Source: Fimbriimonadaceae bacterium
GTDB taxonomy: Bacteria; Armatimonadota; Fimbriimonadia; Fimbriimonadales; Fimbriimonadaceae
Assembly: GCA_019638775.1 (NCBI GenBank)
Contig: JAHBTD010000001.1
Span: 1,178,001 to 1,242,000, forward strand
Length of the DNA: 64,000 nt
Reading direction: 5' to 3'
The position numbers and the translations under genes were made by a program. The notes below the pieces were generated by a model. It did no database searches. It was not told the origin of the DNA and worked only from the letters and a program-made list of their open reading frames with translations. Numbering within the stretch: position 1 is the stretch's first letter; every line of letters starts with the position of its first letter. Below are positions 45,157-52,203 of this stretch, piece by piece.

Positions 45157-45232
45157 GGGGATGTAGCTCAGCTGGGAGAGCGCTGCAATCGCACTGCAGA
45201 GGTCGTGGGTTCGAATCCCATCATCTCCACCA
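45157..45232 (+). tRNA. tRNA-Ala (anticodon CGC)
   Basis: A 76-base tRNA with CCA encoded. The acceptor GGGGATG pairs with CATCTCC and includes G3-T70, the alanine identity pair. The anticodon stem CTGCA/TGCAG encloses the loop ATCGCAC (anticodon CGC), and the T arm GTGGG TTCGAAT CCCAT is normal. TAGAAT at 45138-45143 may be the -10 box. The 3' end is the left attachment site of the integrated element: the stop codon and last codons of the recombinase overlap it on the opposite strand. Confidence 0.97.
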
Positions 45233-46753
45233 ATCTACAGATTTGACGAATACGAGCCGCTTTTCCTCGGCTTCAGCTTCTTTCGGAAGCTCAGAAATCA
45301 CCGTATTTAGCATCAAATCGAAGAACTCATGAAGCTCGACTTCGAGTTTTCCGTCCTTCCAGACCGAGTTCGAACACATATATCCTACAAGTTCGTGCTT
45401 TTGGTTGGAGTCTGCGTTTTTGAATCTAAGATGGGCGGTTGAGGCCAGTTCGAACAATCGCATCGTTTGGTCGATGGAAGCGGTCTCCACACGGTCGATG
45501 GCGGCAAGCTCGATCTTCTTCTCATTGACCTCGGCTTCCCATTTCATGCGAGTTGCCCGATAGAAATCGGTGGTGATGTCCCCAGCGATCTTGTCGAGAT
45601 AGAGTTGCTCAAGGCGTCCTTCGATCTCGGCGATGGATTTCGTTAAATCTCTCTCGTGGATAGCTCGCCTCGCATGACGGTCTTTGTCGGCTTCCGCGAG
45701 TCCCTGGGTGATCCAGGGCATTGCGAAATCGGGAATGTGAAGACCTCGGAGAAGCTGGGTGAAGGCTTCTGTGATCTTAGACTCAGCGATGTACGGGCGT
45801 CCACAGATTTCGCGCTTGCGTCCCGTGCAGTGGTAGTAAACGTATTTGCCCTTTTTGCGTTCGGCAGTGAGCAGTTCGCCGCAGGCGCACCGAATGAGTC
45901 CGCGATAGGCGAACTCTCTGCCACCGAATCCGGTGTTCGTTGTTCGCCCCTCACGGATATCCTGCGCCCGTTTCCAAGTGTCCATCGACACAAGCGGTTC
46001 ATGGATGCCGACAGATTCTTTGCCCTGCCAGCGTATCAAGCCGCAATAGGCGGGATGTTTGATAATCTGTTCAATCGTGCTCCTCACCAAGGGTTTGCCT
46101 TTCTTGGTGGTGAGCCCTGCCTTACGCGCCCACTTGGTTAAGGTGTCGTAGCTTTCAAGTCCCGATGCATACCTCTCAAGGAGTTCTTTGATGAGATGCG
46201 CCCGTGCTGGATCGGGAACAATGATCTTCCGTTTCGTCCCCGGTTCTTGAGCATTGAGGTAGCCGAGCGGCGCGTGGGTGGGATAGATGCCCTGCGCCGC
46301 CTTCTCATTCAGCCCTTTGCGGATTTCCTCGGAGAGGTTATCCACGTAGTTCTTGGCCATCAGTACGCGGATTCCGTGCATAAACTTGTCTTGACTCTTC
46401 GAGCCTTCGCCAATGACCATCCCATCCTTGACGAAGTGGAGCTCTACGCCGAGGTGATCCACCTTCACGTAGTCGGCGAAGTTCCGGTAGAGGCGGTCAA
46501 CCTTCTCAACGAGAATGACATGGCCGGGATTGGCTTCCAAGAAGCGGAGCATTTCTCCAAAGGCGCGTCGTCCTGACTGTTTGGCCGTCTCGGCTTCGGT
46601 GAACTCACTAACCACGTCTACCTGCTGTTCGGCGGCATAAGCTCTCAAGAGGCGGAGTTGGGCATCGACACTGAACCCTTCCACTTCCTGCTCTTTGGAA
46701 CTGACGCGAGCATAGATCACTGCCTTGACCCGCGTCAGCGTCTTCTTCCTCAT
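45221..46753 (-). CDS. Large serine recombinase (integrase)
   Basis: A 510-residue site-specific recombinase. The resolvase domain (1-140) has the catalytic serine in IYARVSSKEQ (Ser18) and GRRAFGEML, DRLYRNFADY. The recombinase domain (about 150-260) has APLGYLNAQ and STIEQIIKHPAYCGLIRWQG, and a zinc ribbon (GLIRCACGELLTAERK ... YYHCTGRKREICGRPY) precedes a coiled coil. It starts after TAGGAGG. The last codons (VDWWR, stop) lie inside the tRNA-Ala 3' end, so integration supplies its C-terminus. It should insert and excise the element through the tRNA terminus. Confidence 0.93.
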   Translation of the reverse strand: MRKKTLTRVKAVIYARVSSKEQEVEGFSVDAQLRLLRAYAAEQQVDVVSEFTEAETAKQSGRRAFGEMLRFLEANPGHVILVEKVDRLYRNFADYVKVDHLGVELHFVKDGMVIGEGSKSQDKFMHGIRVLMAKNYVDNLSEEIRKGLNEKAAQGIYPTHAPLGYLNAQEPGTKRKIIVPDPARAHLIKELLERYASGLESYDTLTKWARKAGLTTKKGKPLVRSTIEQIIKHPAYCGLIRWQGKESVGIHEPLVSMDTWKRAQDIREGRTTNTGFGGREFAYRGLIRCACGELLTAERKKGKYVYYHCTGRKREICGRPYIAESKITEAFTQLLRGLHIPDFAMPWITQGLAEADKDRHARRAIHERDLTKSIAEIEGRLEQLYLDKIAGDITTDFYRATRMKWEAEVNEKKIELAAIDRVETASIDQTMRLFELASTAHLRFKNADSNQKHELVGYMCSNSVWKDGKLEVELHEFFDLMLNTVISELPKEAEAEEKRLVFVKSVDWWR

Positions 46754-46823: not shown

Positions 46824-47042
46824 TTACGCTCCGGTTTGACTCGCTTCGAGGGAAGCAAGTCGGTCGAGAAGGACTTGGTAGCTCTCGGTATCCTGAATGA
46901 TAAGGGCAGGCTTGCCATTGACCGTGAGCACAGACGGCTTTCCACTCTCTGTTAGGCGGTCGATATGTCGACGGTGATGGCGTAGAAAGTCGGTGAGGGA
47001 AAAGACTTGCCGGAGGTCAATCAACGCACCTTTTGCCATCAT
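46824..47042 (-). CDS. Phd/YefM-family antitoxin-like protein
   Basis: A 72-residue protein with the Phd/YefM pattern: FSLTDFLRHHRRHIDRLTES, KPSVLTVNGKPALIIQDTES, YQVLLDRLASLEAS. These antitoxins bind DNA through the N-terminus and neutralise a RelE/Doc-type toxin through the C-terminus. No toxin reading frame lies on either side, so it is an orphan antitoxin or a repressor of the element. It is 70 bases upstream of the recombinase gene in the same direction and may regulate it. Confidence 0.8.
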   Translation of the reverse strand: MMAKGALIDLRQVFSLTDFLRHHRRHIDRLTESGKPSVLTVNGKPALIIQDTESYQVLLDRLASLEASQTGA

Positions 47043-48279: not shown

Positions 48280-49053
48280 TCAGTCATCTACGGTCACGAT
48301 GCTGACTGTAACGCCGTAATCTCCTAGCTCGACCGACTGCTCAATCACACTGAAGCGATCACGATTGAAATCATCGGGAAACCACGCAGAAGTTTCGACC
48401 GTCTCGGGCGCGACAGCATCATCTATACCGTCAGTGCAATAACGAGCTAGACTGTCACCATCCAACTCAGTGCCAATCTGCTTGAAGAAGTAGCTTTCGG
48501 CCCTCTTACTGCGTTGATACCATTTAATTTTTCCATCGACGCTGAAAACTGCAAAAACCGGAAGGTCAGAAAATTGCACCATGCGAAGCAGGGCAGCAGT
48601 AAATGAAGTTTGAAAACGCTCAGCTAGTCGCTTAGCGTCGTCAACTATCGGTGCTTTGTAGCGCATAGCTTCCGTAAAAAGAAAACCAGGCATCAAGAGT
48701 TCGGCGGCGAAGGCGTTTGCTTCCAACTCGTGGGAACTGCCTCGATAAGCCTGAATGTCTTCCGCCGTGCAAAGCACATGCTCAAGACCGGGGTGTAGCT
48801 CCCAATGACCTAACTCATGCGCAATGGTAAAACGTTGCTTACCTATCTCGGGAATATCGGCGTTGTATACGATGAGGCGGCGATGGCGTATCAGCACCCC
48901 GTGTAGACTTCGAAGGCTCTCCGCCCGTACAGCCACTCCCCTCATTGCACAAAGCTCTTCGATGCGTTGCAATGACTCTATCGCAGTTATGTCGAGAGCA
49001 TCAAGAACCTCAATCGCTTTTTTCCTTGCGAGGTCAATCCTCGGTGCCATCAT
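48280..49053 (-). CDS. ImmA/IrrE-family metallo-endopeptidase
   Basis: A 257-residue protease with the zinc motif IAHELGHWELHPG (His79, Glu80, His83) and the following AYRGSSHELEANAFAAELLM, where the second glutamate completes the site. Family members cleave repressors or signalling partners on stress, phage induction or transfer signals. A C-terminal domain (about 150-257) contains VFAVFSVDGKIKWYQRS. Its start overlaps the upstream small gene by 20 bases, suggesting that the small protein is the partner or substrate. It belongs to the minus-strand arm of the Ubl-bearing element. Confidence 0.92.
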   Translation of the reverse strand: MMAPRIDLARKKAIEVLDALDITAIESLQRIEELCAMRGVAVRAESLRSLHGVLIRHRRLIVYNADIPEIGKQRFTIAHELGHWELHPGLEHVLCTAEDIQAYRGSSHELEANAFAAELLMPGFLFTEAMRYKAPIVDDAKRLAERFQTSFTAALLRMVQFSDLPVFAVFSVDGKIKWYQRSKRAESYFFKQIGTELDGDSLARYCTDGIDDAVAPETVETSAWFPDDFNRDRFSVIEQSVELGDYGVTVSIVTVDD

Positions 49054-49393
49054 CCTCTATATCTGGCTGGGCAAGTCGCTGTAGCAGTTCCTTATCCTCC
49101 TGATCCACCACGATATCCGTGCGGGCAGCAAATGCAAAACCGTTGGAAATGGGTTTGGCGGTTCGCAATGAGTTCACCTCCGCTTGCTCTGCGGCTCGGG
49201 CCGCTTCGAATTTGTTGCGAATGATTTGAAGGCGTTTATTGGTAGCCTTTTCGAGTGCTTGGGGGTTGATCCCTTGAGACTGGAGCCTTTCTCCCACTTC
49301 CTCCTTTGAAAGCGACGCGATATCGCCCTCAGTGGCTGATGCGAATGAAAGCAACTCACGGACCACTTTGTAATTCGTTTGCTTCTCGCTCAT
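49034..49393 (-). CDS. Small helical partner of the ImmA/IrrE peptidase
   Basis: A 119-residue protein with helical N-terminal half (YKVVRELLSFASATEGDIAS, LSKEEVGERLQSQGINPQAL) and an acidic end (QPDIEDDGTED). No known family is recognised. The 20-base overlap with ImmA/IrrE and its position between that peptidase and the sigma-like gene suggest a regulator or cleavage substrate, for example an anti-sigma-like factor. This is inference from arrangement only. Confidence 0.6.
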   Translation of the reverse strand: MSEKQTNYKVVRELLSFASATEGDIASLSKEEVGERLQSQGINPQALEKATNKRLQIIRNKFEAARAAEQAEVNSLRTAKPISNGFAFAARTDIVVDQEDKELLQRLAQPDIEDDGTED

Positions 49394-49406
49394 TAGTAAA
49401 TCCTTG

Positions 49407-49988
49407 TCATGTGGCGGTTTCCTTGATTTTCTGGAATAGATCGTGTTTTTCTAAAAGTGCTTGCAGGTGAGTGCGTCGTTTGTTGAGTTCGTGTTTGGAT
49501 ATTTTTAGTGCGGTTTGAACCTCTCCCCAATTTACCGAGCCGTCGTTTCCGACTTGCTCTTGGAGGGCCAGGATAAGTTCCTGGGTTCCATCGTCGGCGT
49601 CATCATAGAGAGCATTGAGAAGCTCTGCGGTTGCCTGGTCGGTCGCTACGTCCACTTCTTCTGTTTCGTAGCTGATGGTAGTGGGGCATTTCGTGTACTT
49701 CTTCTTATCATCGGTGATAAGGCGTCGCACCAGAACCTCAAGAAAAGGAAACAAGTCCCCACGGTCAGGCTCCCATTTGTTCTTTCCGGTCATGCAGCCT
49801 TCATAAGCTTTTTCGATGGCTGTAAGGGCGTAGTCCTCAGCAGAGCATCCAGAAGGGGCGGCGGTGCCATCTTTTGTCCGGCTACAGTAGCCGCAGAGCT
49901 TAAGTTGGTTCAAGGCCACAAGAGTAAGCCTGCCCACAATATCCAGCCAATCCTGTTGGTCTAGTTGCGCTTTCAGTTGGTCGTCCAA
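49407..49988 (-). CDS. Sigma-factor-like protein
   Basis: A 193-residue protein. Residues about 48-100 (GCSAEDYALTAIEKAYEGCM, WEPDRGDLFPFLEVLVRRLI) follow the pattern of sigma-70 region 2 (helix entering the clade, W-x-P-x-R-G-x-L-F-x-F-L). Near the C-terminus VNWGEVQTALKISKHELNKR could be a region-4-like HTH. A CGYCSRTKDG segment may bind metal. It is divergent from the Ubl gene across 179 bases, so it may control that promoter. A plain DNA-binding protein without sigma activity is also possible. Confidence 0.6.
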   Translation of the reverse strand: MDDQLKAQLDQQDWLDIVGRLTLVALNQLKLCGYCSRTKDGTAAPSGCSAEDYALTAIEKAYEGCMTGKNKWEPDRGDLFPFLEVLVRRLITDDKKKYTKCPTTISYETEEVDVATDQATAELLNALYDDADDGTQELILALQEQVGNDGSVNWGEVQTALKISKHELNKRRTHLQALLEKHDLFQKIKETAT

Positions 49989-50167: not shown

Positions 50168-50662
50168 ATGAGCGAAGATAAAGCGCAAATCAATCCGGGA
50201 CGGCGGCAATACCCGATCCAAATCGACGAAACGACCCATCAGGTGGATGGCCCAAGTATCACAGGGCGAACCATCCTCGACCTTGCCAAGAAAGATGCGG
50301 AAACGCACTTCGTGACCCAAATCATCGTGGGTGAGGATGACATCGTAGTTCAACTTGACGACAAGGTAGACATCAGCGCGCCAGGTAAGGAGCGGTTCAC
50401 CATCGTCGCGAAGCCCGAGCAGCCTTGCCAGGTCATCGTGAATACACACCATCACGACTGGAATGCCCGAACAATCAGCTTCGAGCAGGTGGTGAGTTGG
50501 GCATTTCCAGACTGGCGTCAAGATGATCCGAATACGACGGAGTACACCGTCACATACGATTGTGGAGTTCCTGAGCAGCCTGAAGGCTCGCTCGTGGCTG
50601 GGGGCAGCGTGAAAGTCCGCTGTGGGATGGTGTTCGATGTTGACCGAACTAATCGCTCGTAA
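50168..50662 (+). CDS. Double ubiquitin-like (multiubiquitin-domain) protein
   Basis: A 164-residue protein with two beta-grasp-like units. The first is YPIQIDETTHQVDGPSITGR, TILDLAKKDAE, then IIVGEDDIVVQLDDKVDISA (residues 14-80). The second is CQVIVNTHHHDWNARTISFE, QVVSWAFPDW, then TVTYDCGVPEQPEGSLVAGG ending VRCGMVFDVDRTNRS (85-164). Both fit the multiubiquitin (PF14452-like) pattern. Neither unit ends in Gly-Gly, unlike classical ubiquitin. It is the first gene of the plus-strand cassette and overlaps the E1 gene by 26 bases. Covalent attachment to targets is inferred, not shown. Confidence 0.82.
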   Translation: MSEDKAQINPGRRQYPIQIDETTHQVDGPSITGRTILDLAKKDAETHFVTQIIVGEDDIVVQLDDKVDISAPGKERFTIVAKPEQPCQVIVNTHHHDWNARTISFEQVVSWAFPDWRQDDPNTTEYTVTYDCGVPEQPEGSLVAGGSVKVRCGMVFDVDRTNRS

Positions 50663-51821
50663 CCCTGACCTGCAACGGTTGCGCAACGAGGGCTACGACA
50701 TCGCTGTCGTAGCCGACCACCTTGTTATGCGAGATGTACCGTATGTTAACGACAAAAAGGAAGTGAAGCGCGGAACCCTCGTCTCGGTCTTGGAACTGTC
50801 GGGGAATTCAACGGTAAAGCCTCAGCAGCACGTCATCATGTTTTCAGGGGACTATCCATGCCGTCAGGATGGCCAGCCAATTGAGACAATCCGCCATCAA
50901 ACCAGTTCCCAGCAAATCGGGGATTTCCACGTTCAGCACTCATTCTCGAATAAGCCAGAAGGTGGATATGCGGACTATCACGAAAAGATGACTCGCTACG
51001 CGGCAATCCTATCTGCTCCAGCAGCAGCGATTGACCCAGAGGTTACGTCCAAGACTTTTCCTGCATTGCCCAACGATGACCCTGAAAGTGTCTTTGTCTA
51101 CATGGATACGGCATCGAGTCGAGCTGGAATCACGGAACTACCCGACCGTTTGCGCCTTGGGCGAATTGCGATCATTGGACTCGGTGGGACTGGTTCATAC
51201 ACACTTGACCTGGTTGCTAAAACGCCCGTAAAGGAGATTCACCTCTTTGATAAAGATATGTTTCAGAACCATAACGCATTTCGCTCTCCTGGTGCGGCAT
51301 CGCTCTCCGATCTGGAAGGAAGGCCCAGCAAGGTCGCTTACCATGCGGCGATGTACTCGGCAATGCATCGAGGGATCGTTCCGCATGAGGTGCACGTTAC
51401 TGAAACCAATGTCACTGACCTAGAAGGTATGGATTTTGTGTTTGTTTGCATAGACCGTAACGAACCGAAACGAGTGATTTTTGACTGGCTCAAGTCCAAC
51501 GGGATTTCGTTCATTGATGTAGGAATGGGTGTCACGCTTGAGAATGGGAAGCTACGCGGGACTCTTCGCACGACCACCGTCACCGAGGAGCTGAGCGGCC
51601 ATGTTAATAATCGTGTGTCGTTCGTGGACAGGCATGAGGATGCAGCTTATGATCAGAACATTCAGATTGCGGACTTGAACGCGCTCAATGCGGCTATGGC
51701 CGTCCTTAAGTGGAAGAAGCTTTTCGGCTTCTACCACGATCAGCAGAGGGAACACCACTCGACCTTCAGGATTGGCCAGAACAAGGTTCTGAATGAGGAT
51801 ATCGTTGCGAATGAACCATGA
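50637..51821 (+). CDS. E1-like ThiF-family adenylyltransferase with DUF6791 N-terminus
   Basis: A 394-residue protein. The N-terminal DUF6791 region (residues 1-140) reads LIARNPDLQRLRNEGYDIAV, RDVPYVNDKKEVKRGTLVSV, SFSNKPEGGYADYHEKM. The Rossmann E1 core follows with IAIIGLGGTGSYTLD, the Mg/ATP loop HLFDKDMFQNHNAFRSPGA and FVFVCIDRN. It should adenylate a Ubl C-terminus. Only two cysteines are present (YPCRQ and VFVCID), so a usual downstream thioester cysteine and a zinc-binding CxxC pair are missing. The start at 50637 overlaps the Ubl gene; the end overlaps the DUF6527 gene by 11 bases. Confidence 0.88.
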   Translation: MLTELIARNPDLQRLRNEGYDIAVVADHLVMRDVPYVNDKKEVKRGTLVSVLELSGNSTVKPQQHVIMFSGDYPCRQDGQPIETIRHQTSSQQIGDFHVQHSFSNKPEGGYADYHEKMTRYAAILSAPAAAIDPEVTSKTFPALPNDDPESVFVYMDTASSRAGITELPDRLRLGRIAIIGLGGTGSYTLDLVAKTPVKEIHLFDKDMFQNHNAFRSPGAASLSDLEGRPSKVAYHAAMYSAMHRGIVPHEVHVTETNVTDLEGMDFVFVCIDRNEPKRVIFDWLKSNGISFIDVGMGVTLENGKLRGTLRTTTVTEELSGHVNNRVSFVDRHEDAAYDQNIQIADLNALNAAMAVLKWKKLFGFYHDQQREHHSTFRIGQNKVLNEDIVANEP

Positions 51822-52203
51822 ATTCGTAGAGAGCTTCCCAGAATCTTTGGAGCATGGGAAGCTTTATGTGTCGATGCGCTATAGGACAGCGGCCCACCTT
51901 TGTGCCTGTGGATGTGGCCGCAAGGTTGTTACGCCGATCCGAAGAGGAGCTTGGAAGCTGGAGTTTGACGGGGAGAGCATCACACTGTTCCCGTCGATAG
52001 GGAGCAGCAACCTTCCTTGTCGCTCGCATTACTTCATCCGCGATGGGCTTGTGAAGTGGCTACCAGAAATGGAAGATATCAAGGAGAAAAAGGCGACGCA
52101 AGCCGAGCCGCTAAAAGCAGAACCTGAGCCTTTGCCTTCCAACGAAGAGAAAACTTGGTGGAAAAAGTGGTTCGGGTGGCTGGTGTTTTGGGGTCGGCTA
52201 TAA
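51811..52203 (+). CDS. DUF6527 zinc protein of the Ubl cassette
   Basis: A 130-residue protein. HLCACGCGRKVVTPI and LPCRSHYFIRDGLVKWLP give four cysteines plus histidine, enough for a structural zinc site. A Pro/Lys-rich linker leads to a Trp-rich amphipathic end (TWWKKWFGWLVFWGRL), which could touch membrane. DUF6527 proteins recur beside multiubiquitin and ThiF genes, and their role (E2/E3 substitute, protease or adaptor) is unknown. The ATG at 51811 overlaps the E1 stop. No E2 or JAB/JAMM peptidase gene is present nearby. Confidence 0.82.
   Translation: MNHEFVESFPESLEHGKLYVSMRYRTAAHLCACGCGRKVVTPIRRGAWKLEFDGESITLFPSIGSSNLPCRSHYFIRDGLVKWLPEMEDIKEKKATQAEPLKAEPEPLPSNEEKTWWKKWFGWLVFWGRL

Follow-up and report, generated by a model that had tools for sequence, protein, structure and literature searches.

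A compact ubiquitin-like cassette whose modifier and E1 genes share a dual-coding overlap of constant register

A three-gene cassette in a Fimbriimonadaceae genome

We analysed a stretch of 64,000 nucleotides (nt) from a Fimbriimonadaceae bacterium, called the window below, to which all positions refer. Its plus strand carries, at 50168 to 52203, a cassette of three genes in the order double ubiquitin-like protein (Ubl, Multi_ubiq family), E1-like enzyme with DUF6791 and ThiF domains, and DUF6527 protein, as read from the list of open reading frames and from Pfam. The analysis confirmed the cassette, and its features are listed here.

50168 to 50662, plus strand: Ubl gene, 164 residues, two beta-grasp (Multi_ubiq) domains, ending in -TNRS; Pfam PF14452, E 5.5e-28, in two stretches
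50637 to 50662, plus strand: dual-coding overlap of 26 nt, the Ubl tail and stop in one frame and E1 residues 1-8 in the +1 frame
50637 to 51821, plus strand: E1-like activating enzyme, 394 residues, DUF6791 plus ThiF; NCBIfam NF004805 (PRK06153), E 1.9e-170
50664 to 51110, plus strand: DUF6791 domain, E1 residues 10-158; Pfam PF20590, E 7.8e-59; in the place of JAB in related operons
51144 to 51527, plus strand: ThiF adenylation core, E1 residues 170-297; Pfam E 1.8e-13, with the fold match reaching residue 391
51648 to 51650, plus strand: codon of the invariant Tyr338, aligned with BubC Tyr370
51811 to 52203, plus strand: DUF6527 protein, 130 residues (136 if started at 51793); Pfam E 2.8e-23

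An earlier note on this DNA had described an overlapping three-gene cassette with a tandem Ubl that lacks a C-terminal Gly-Gly and with no E2 or JAB gene, and on all these points it was right. The E1 and DUF6527 genes share 11 nt if the latter starts at 51811 and 29 nt if it starts at 51793; the two Multi_ubiq stretches account for the tandem; and Pfam matched no E2 or JAB gene within the cassette. The 'multi-ubiquitin domain protein' of PDB entry 9cd2 aligned with Ubl residues 15-164 up to its own C-terminus (E 8.7e-13), and both proteins end in T-x-[KR]-S.

The Ubl and E1 genes overlap in an invariant register

The overlap between the Ubl and E1 genes was compared in two sets of loci. The first had 95 rows, which represent 94 distinct loci with the window counted twice; the second had 11 further loci, picked as divergent or from another phylum (L153 and L047 are one genome). 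In the window, the true E1 start is the ATG at 50637 rather than the GTG at 50622 given in the list of open reading frames. In every one of the 95 rows of the first set, a Ubl-type open frame runs to a stop that ends 26 nt past the first aligned E1 position, and a start codon stands at that position in 94 (ATG in 91, TTG in 2 and GTG in 1; L012 has GAG). The register was kept in 11 of the 11 further loci, with a start codon at the same position in 8. It is thus identical in 106 of 106 rows, the overlap measuring 26 nt in 102 and 41 nt in the other 4 (L145, L146, L148 and L012), where the E1 starts 15 nt earlier. The cassettes of Escherichia coli CP61_Sichuan and Acinetobacter soli have the 26-nt overlap too. 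The lowest pairwise E1 identity was 40% in the 68-sequence alignment (A2) and 29% in alignment A1. The overlap between the E1 and DUF6527 genes, by contrast, is variable, measuring 4 nt in 46 loci and 11 nt in another 11, with values from -8 to 35 nt in the rest.

A redundancy filter based on four-letter words shared among the E1s reduced the 95 rows to 81. In these non-redundant loci the Ubl always ends in Ser (81/81), with Thr at position -4 in 77 and Lys, Gln or Arg at -2 in 80, while total Ubl length ranges from 81 to 274 residues. Constraint on the E1 frame was tested in 300 rounds of resampling, in which Ubl codons were exchanged for synonymous ones according to the codon usage of the gene concerned; this gives the counts expected if only the Ubl protein mattered. 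E1 Ser2 was observed in 70 of the 81 loci (24.9 expected), Leu5 in 69 (14.3 expected), Ile or Val at residue 6 in 67 (33.9 expected), and Asn or Ser at residue 9 in 79 (54.1 expected). Because the Ubl tail is conserved and the E1 residues exceed the resampling expectation, we conclude that the overlap encodes two selected protein ends and that both frames are constrained. A Shine-Dalgarno-like stretch before the E1 start was not enriched (31/81 against 29.8 expected by resampling), which agrees with E1 translation being coupled to the Ubl gene.

A separate synonymous bias lies just 5' of the E1 ATG, at the Phe codon 50633-50635. It is TTC in 74 of 78 cases where Phe is encoded (43.8 expected, standard deviation 3.8), and in 28 of 30 among genes that otherwise favour TTT. 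No description of the overlap was found in the searchable literature, a body of text that leaves out the two most relevant papers. The constant 26-nt overlap, which recurs in many bacterial phyla, makes an unusual and testable case of bacterial dual coding.

The E1 has a Bub-like fold, no invariant cysteine and an invariant tyrosine

Alignment A2 and the structure prediction used 68 of the 81 E1s, namely that of the window and those from the search for relatives. The adenylation signature, reported as invariant (GxGGTG, D205, D207, R216, K232 and D273), was present in 67 of the 68. The AlphaFold2 model built from these sequences had a mean predicted local distance difference test score (pLDDT) of 92.8. 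The best Foldseek matches were the Citrobacter BubCD entries (E 3.0e-14), and VIA-align superposed residues 165 to 391 of the model on BubCD 9ea4 with Z 24.2 and a root-mean-square deviation of 2.4 over 220 aligned residues at 20% identity.

C75 and C271 are the only cysteines of the window E1, and neither lies at the transthiolation position; the earlier note had said as much, and the statement can be extended to the family, in which no cysteine is invariant. Of the 68 aligned E1s, 65 have C75 and 52 have C271. One E1 of the 81 (L010) has no cysteine at all, and 3 of the 81 have none after residue 165. To judge from its motif, F-V-F-x-C-x-D, C271 probably lies in a strand of the nucleotide pocket and not in the crossover loop.

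Tyr338, on the other hand, was invariant in 68 of 68 and in 14 of 14 aligned E1s. When the E1 profile was compared with that of five JAB-type E1s (probability 98.9, E 2.7e-17), Tyr338 fell on a Tyr that is invariant in those five. Traced through L113, the aligned Tyr is index 372 of the BubCD chain; D104A falls at index 106, an offset of 2, so the aligned residue is BubC Tyr370. This residue was changed to Phe by the depositors of PDB 9eav (Y370F), which may mark a catalytic role of the Tyr. The suggestion of the earlier note that the chemistry may differ from that of known systems is therefore plausible, given that BubC was crystallised with the Y370F change and that Tyr370 aligns with the invariant Tyr338.

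Bub is reported by Ye et al. to use oxyester rather than thioester intermediates.

DUF6791 and DUF6527

Nine residues of DUF6791 (G19, P35, H65, G71, P74, S104, K106, Y121 and A129) were invariant in 29 diverse members. The domain could be a concealed E2-like domain, a hydrolase or of another kind; the fold search with the E1 model was filled with matches to the ThiF domain. In six JAB-type loci of the same phylum, a Prok-E2_E gene or fusion lies between the Ubl and the E1; the DUF6791-type loci have neither this E2 nor a JAB. Among E2-like families the search covered Prok-E2_E alone; it was absent from the window's genome, although the same search was positive in 23 of the phylum's 291 genomes. 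It was absent as well from 20 of 20 cassette genomes, in a search in which no positive control matched. The single Prok-JAB match in the window's genome was below the cut-off and on another contig. Partial Prok-E2_E matches were seen in one family of the same phylum (two each in G065, G079, G080 and G082, one each in G067, G069 and G073), in proteins of 148-200 residues with conserved W and CC motifs. The literature search found nothing on DUF6791, PRK06153 or PF20590.

In all 95 rows the E1 is followed, on its own strand, by a DUF6527-like frame. In an alignment (A3) of 67 of the 78 DUF6527 sequences taken from the 81 loci, the residues H29, C31, G34, C35, W48, P61, S62, G64, C70, H73 and Y74 were invariant; C31-x3-C35 and C70-x2-H73 probably form a metal site. 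DUF6527 is not specific to the DUF6791 type: of five JAB-type loci whose sequence was read beyond the E1, two (L113 and L114) have it downstream as well. The DUF6527 model had a mean pLDDT of 82.3. Weak fold matches, several USP-type deubiquitinases (DUBs) among them, were not used. No literature on DUF6527 was found in the literature search.

The cassette is widespread and sporadic

A contig scan with a 14-sequence profile found relatives of the E1 in at least 532 of 593 pattern-matched stretches, and the best 80 of these relatives became loci L015-L094. The cassette is beyond chance, because so many of the pattern matches encode a relative and the DUF6527-like frame downstream is constant. 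Titles of the records name Nitrospira, Proteobacteria, Acidobacteria, Bacteroidota, Cyanobacteria, Actinobacteria, Chloroflexi, Verrucomicrobia, Kiritimatiellae, Lentisphaerae, Phycisphaerae, Elusimicrobia and Ignavibacteria, as well as two archaeal records. Many of the relatives are metagenome-assembled genomes, and single labels, chiefly the archaeal ones, may be binning errors. A tblastn search with the E1 returned 115 plasmid records with a relative, 109 of them covering at least 80% of the query and all below 60% identity; these records added Bacillota. Occurrence is sporadic: among 101 relatives of the window's genome, 4 have the cassette; in another phylum it was present in 3 of 396 genomes, counting the centre genome; and a close copy was found in 3 of 5,426 E. 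coli genomes. No relative was found in IMG/VR with a single-sequence query, and phages gave no relative of the Ubl or the E1.

Neighbouring genes and the surrounding element

Upstream of the cassette lie the following features.

45157 to 45232, plus strand: tRNA-Ala(cgc), found by ARAGORN
45221 to 46753, minus strand: large serine recombinase of the surrounding element; Pfam Resolvase, Recombinase and Zn_ribbon_recom
48280 to 49053, minus strand: CapP-like ImmA/IrrE (M78) metallopeptidase; PADLOC capP, E 1.2e-54, profile positions 6-241 of 242; Pfam M78, E 8.7e-20
49034 to 49393, minus strand: 119-residue protein between the sigma-like gene and CapP; similar small genes stand at the same place elsewhere
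49407 to 49988, minus strand: diverged sigma-70-like protein, 193 residues, divergent from the cassette; its own Pfam search gave no match of use

CapP, a peptidase linked to DNA-damage control, is described in passages of PMC13373217 and PMC10904395 as a protease that is activated by single-stranded DNA and cleaves a repressor. The passages of PMC13373217 name this repressor as CapH, place either CapW or CapH with CapP at 219 of 544 Bub operons, and state that phage protection by Bub operons at large has not been demonstrated. Our CapP count used the 67 loci with 3 kb of upstream sequence, 43 of which have a CapP-like M78 frame within 2.5 kb upstream, divergent in 39 of the 43. In the window, the two proteins adjacent to CapP matched no helix-turn-helix (HTH) family in Pfam, PADLOC or NCBIfam. 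Among seven comparable sigma-like neighbours elsewhere, five matched Sigma70_r2 or Sigma70_r4 with E 6e-5 to 0.05, all below the cut-off, and two had no match. The small protein could, as a guess, be an anti-sigma factor, and the set of CapP, small protein and sigma-like protein is possibly a sigma factor released by proteolysis that replaces the CapH repressor.

The gene order of CapP, small gene and sigma-like gene, at 48280-49988 on the minus strand in the window, recurs in L036, L038, L048, L051, L060, L062, L071 and L079. In 16 of 94 loci (L005, L037, L073 and L092, for example) the Ubl gene directly follows a fusion of M78, UvrD and PDDEXK, which marks a subtype whose Ubl tail is mostly -TVQS. 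The fusion, which has 1136 residues in E. coli (L159, 786-4196), heads the operon of this subtype and is preceded by a protein of about 193 residues. WYL regulators adjoin L149 and L082, and small DUF1508 (YegP-like), DUF2188 or DUF3892 genes lie directly upstream at L009, L014, L147 and L151.

That the cassette sits on a recombinase-borne island, as the earlier note proposed, we hold with moderate confidence. The recombinase gene overlaps the 3' end of the tRNA-Ala gene, which is the likely attachment site, and GC content drops from 0.56-0.63 to 0.50-0.55 across 45-53 kb. No distal repeat of 14 nt or longer matching the tRNA end was found. A Phd/YefM-like antitoxin gene (46824-47042, minus strand; Pfam E 2.6e-4, below the cut-off) adjoins the recombinase gene.

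Proposed mechanism and alternatives

We tentatively propose, at somewhat less than an even chance, that the locus is a DUF6791-type, Bub-like Ubl activation cassette that would work as follows. The Ubl, to judge from its invariant tail and stop, would be made with its final C-terminus, always Ser, and would need no maturation protease. The ThiF half of the E1 is predicted from family and fold to adenylate this C-terminus using ATP. Transfer would then proceed without a conserved cysteine, most likely onto Tyr338 as an ester, at the site of BubC Tyr370. DUF6791 may perform the hand-over or substrate step in cis; this is the weakest step, suggested by sister operons that have JAB in its place and an E2 adjoining. 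DUF6527, which probably binds a metal and also occurs in E2/JAB-type operons, might recognise targets or remove the Ubl, which is a guess. The fixed overlap locks both termini, for which the constraint was demonstrated, and would couple E1 to Ubl translation. Transcription may be induced by DNA damage through CapP, as the family and position of that protein suggest, and the use could be phage defence or stress response. A bolder version strikes us as unlikely: a one-polypeptide Ubl ligase that works without a catalytic cysteine or a free-standing E2, in which a Tyr338 tyrosyl ester, delivery by DUF6791 in cis, the overlap kept across phyla and a CapP-sigma-factor relay in place of CapH would all go together.

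Several results weigh against the proposed mechanism. C75 and C271 are common and could form a thioester in the majority of E1s; what BubC Tyr370 does was read from a PDB title only; and the profile alignment is weaker towards the end near which Tyr338 lies. DUF6791 had no detectable homology to Prok-E2_E (hhalign with 32 Prok-E2_E rows, not significant; 5 of 100 shuffles scored as high) or to JAB. DUF6527 found no fold match, with no Foldseek E at or below 0.001 and no VIA Z of 5 or more among 930 aligned. Finally, 24 of the 67 loci lack a separate CapP-like neighbour; 7 of these 24 (L005, L037, L039, L066, L067, L070 and L092) have directly upstream a relative of the E. coli M78-UvrD-PDDEXK fusion.

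The cysteine counts and the existence of sister operons with an E2 would suit conventional thioester chemistry, in which the E1 would use C271 or C75, and an E2-like protein encoded by the host outside the cassette would complete conjugation of the Ubl to lysine. We regard this as quite improbable, since neither cysteine is invariant, L010 has none, 3 of the 81 E1s have none after residue 165, C271 appears to belong to the nucleotide pocket and not to the crossover loop, and Prok-E2_E was missing from the window's genome and the 20 cassette genomes. The E1 fold also resembles ThiF, MoeB and MccB, all of which lack a transthiolation step, so that adenylation might serve small-molecule or sulfur-carrier chemistry (ThiS/MoaD- or MccB-like) instead of protein conjugation. 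To this we give a small chance: the best fold match is a Bub conjugation E1, no rhodanese or biosynthetic genes adjoin the cassette in the loci that were read, and the Ubls are tandem and end in Ser, not Gly-Gly.

We think it just as improbable that the cassette is a selfish toxin-antitoxin-like or island-maintenance module stabilised by an Xre/M78 toxin-antitoxin pair. Plasmids and islands are common homes, and 70% of PF14452 proteins adjoin such loci, with stabilisation proposed in passages of PMC4963859; but the window M78 protein matches capP over its full length, and CapP is a repressor-cleaving protease by the descriptions cited above. The overlap itself could be imagined as a programmed +1 frameshift site (UCN-UAR) yielding some Ubl-E1 fusion, since the Ubl gene invariably closes with a TCN sense codon, followed in 79 of 81 loci by a TAR stop, and the E1 is read in the +1 frame relative to it. 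This is very hard to credit: a start codon, needless for a pure frameshift, stands at the E1 position in 80 of 81, the TAR is also accounted for by Asn or Ser at E1 residue 9 in 79 of 81, and no fused frame occurred in 106 rows.

Reduced to a modifier, a single activating enzyme and a small, probably metal-binding protein, the cassette is among the smallest conjugation-like systems known from sequence. If the Tyr338 route without cysteine or E2 is true, it would extend non-thioester transfer and bear on the origin of ubiquitination, and the close E. coli copy eases laboratory tests. The unvarying dual-coding overlap, the predicted role of Tyr338 and the variant that pairs CapP with a sigma-like protein seem worth following.

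Comparison with known systems

The cassette E1 has the prokaryotic E1 adenylation fold in common with Cap2 of type II CBASS (PDB 7to3) and with Bil. PADLOC E1-E2 models matched the E1 core only (best E 1.7e-6), and the cassette and its neighbours, unlike those systems, have no CD-NTase gene, no recognised E2 domain and no separate DUB. The likeness to Bub, for example Citrobacter BubA-BubB-BubCD (PDB 9ea4, 9ea5, 9ea8, 9eae and 9eav), is closer: the multi-Ubl, the E1 core fold and the aligned Tyr are common to both, a DUF6527-like gene lies 3' of the E1 in the BubCD-like L113 and L114, and CapP or CapW neighbours are described for Bub in passages of PMC13373217. The window cassette differs in having neither an E2 (BubB, Prok-E2_E) nor a JAB (BubD), with DUF6791 instead, and in its Ubl tail T-x-[KRQ]-S and constant overlap. 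As with CapH+CapP regulators, CapP is divergent from the operon, but the window has the sigma-like and small proteins instead of an HTH CapH.

The closest published layout is the 'domain X' variant of operon type 6e of Iyer, Burroughs and Aravind in 2006 (PMC1779556). As described in the passages on that type, it likewise has a polyUbl of one to three domains, an E1 whose N-terminal part is an uncharacterised domain rather than JAB (here DUF6791 plus ThiF), a separate putative zinc protein and a sporadic, mobile distribution. We infer that domain X is Pfam DUF6791. The metal signatures are similar and differ in order and spacing (C-x3-C-x34-C-x2-H here, C-x3-C-x(35-38)-H-x2-C there), and the type 6e passages mention no fixed overlap, invariant Ser tail or Tyr338. 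With a layout in print since 2006, solved relatives of its Ubl and E1 and a common occurrence, the cassette does not represent a new kind of system, and the novelty that the earlier note gave it was overstated.

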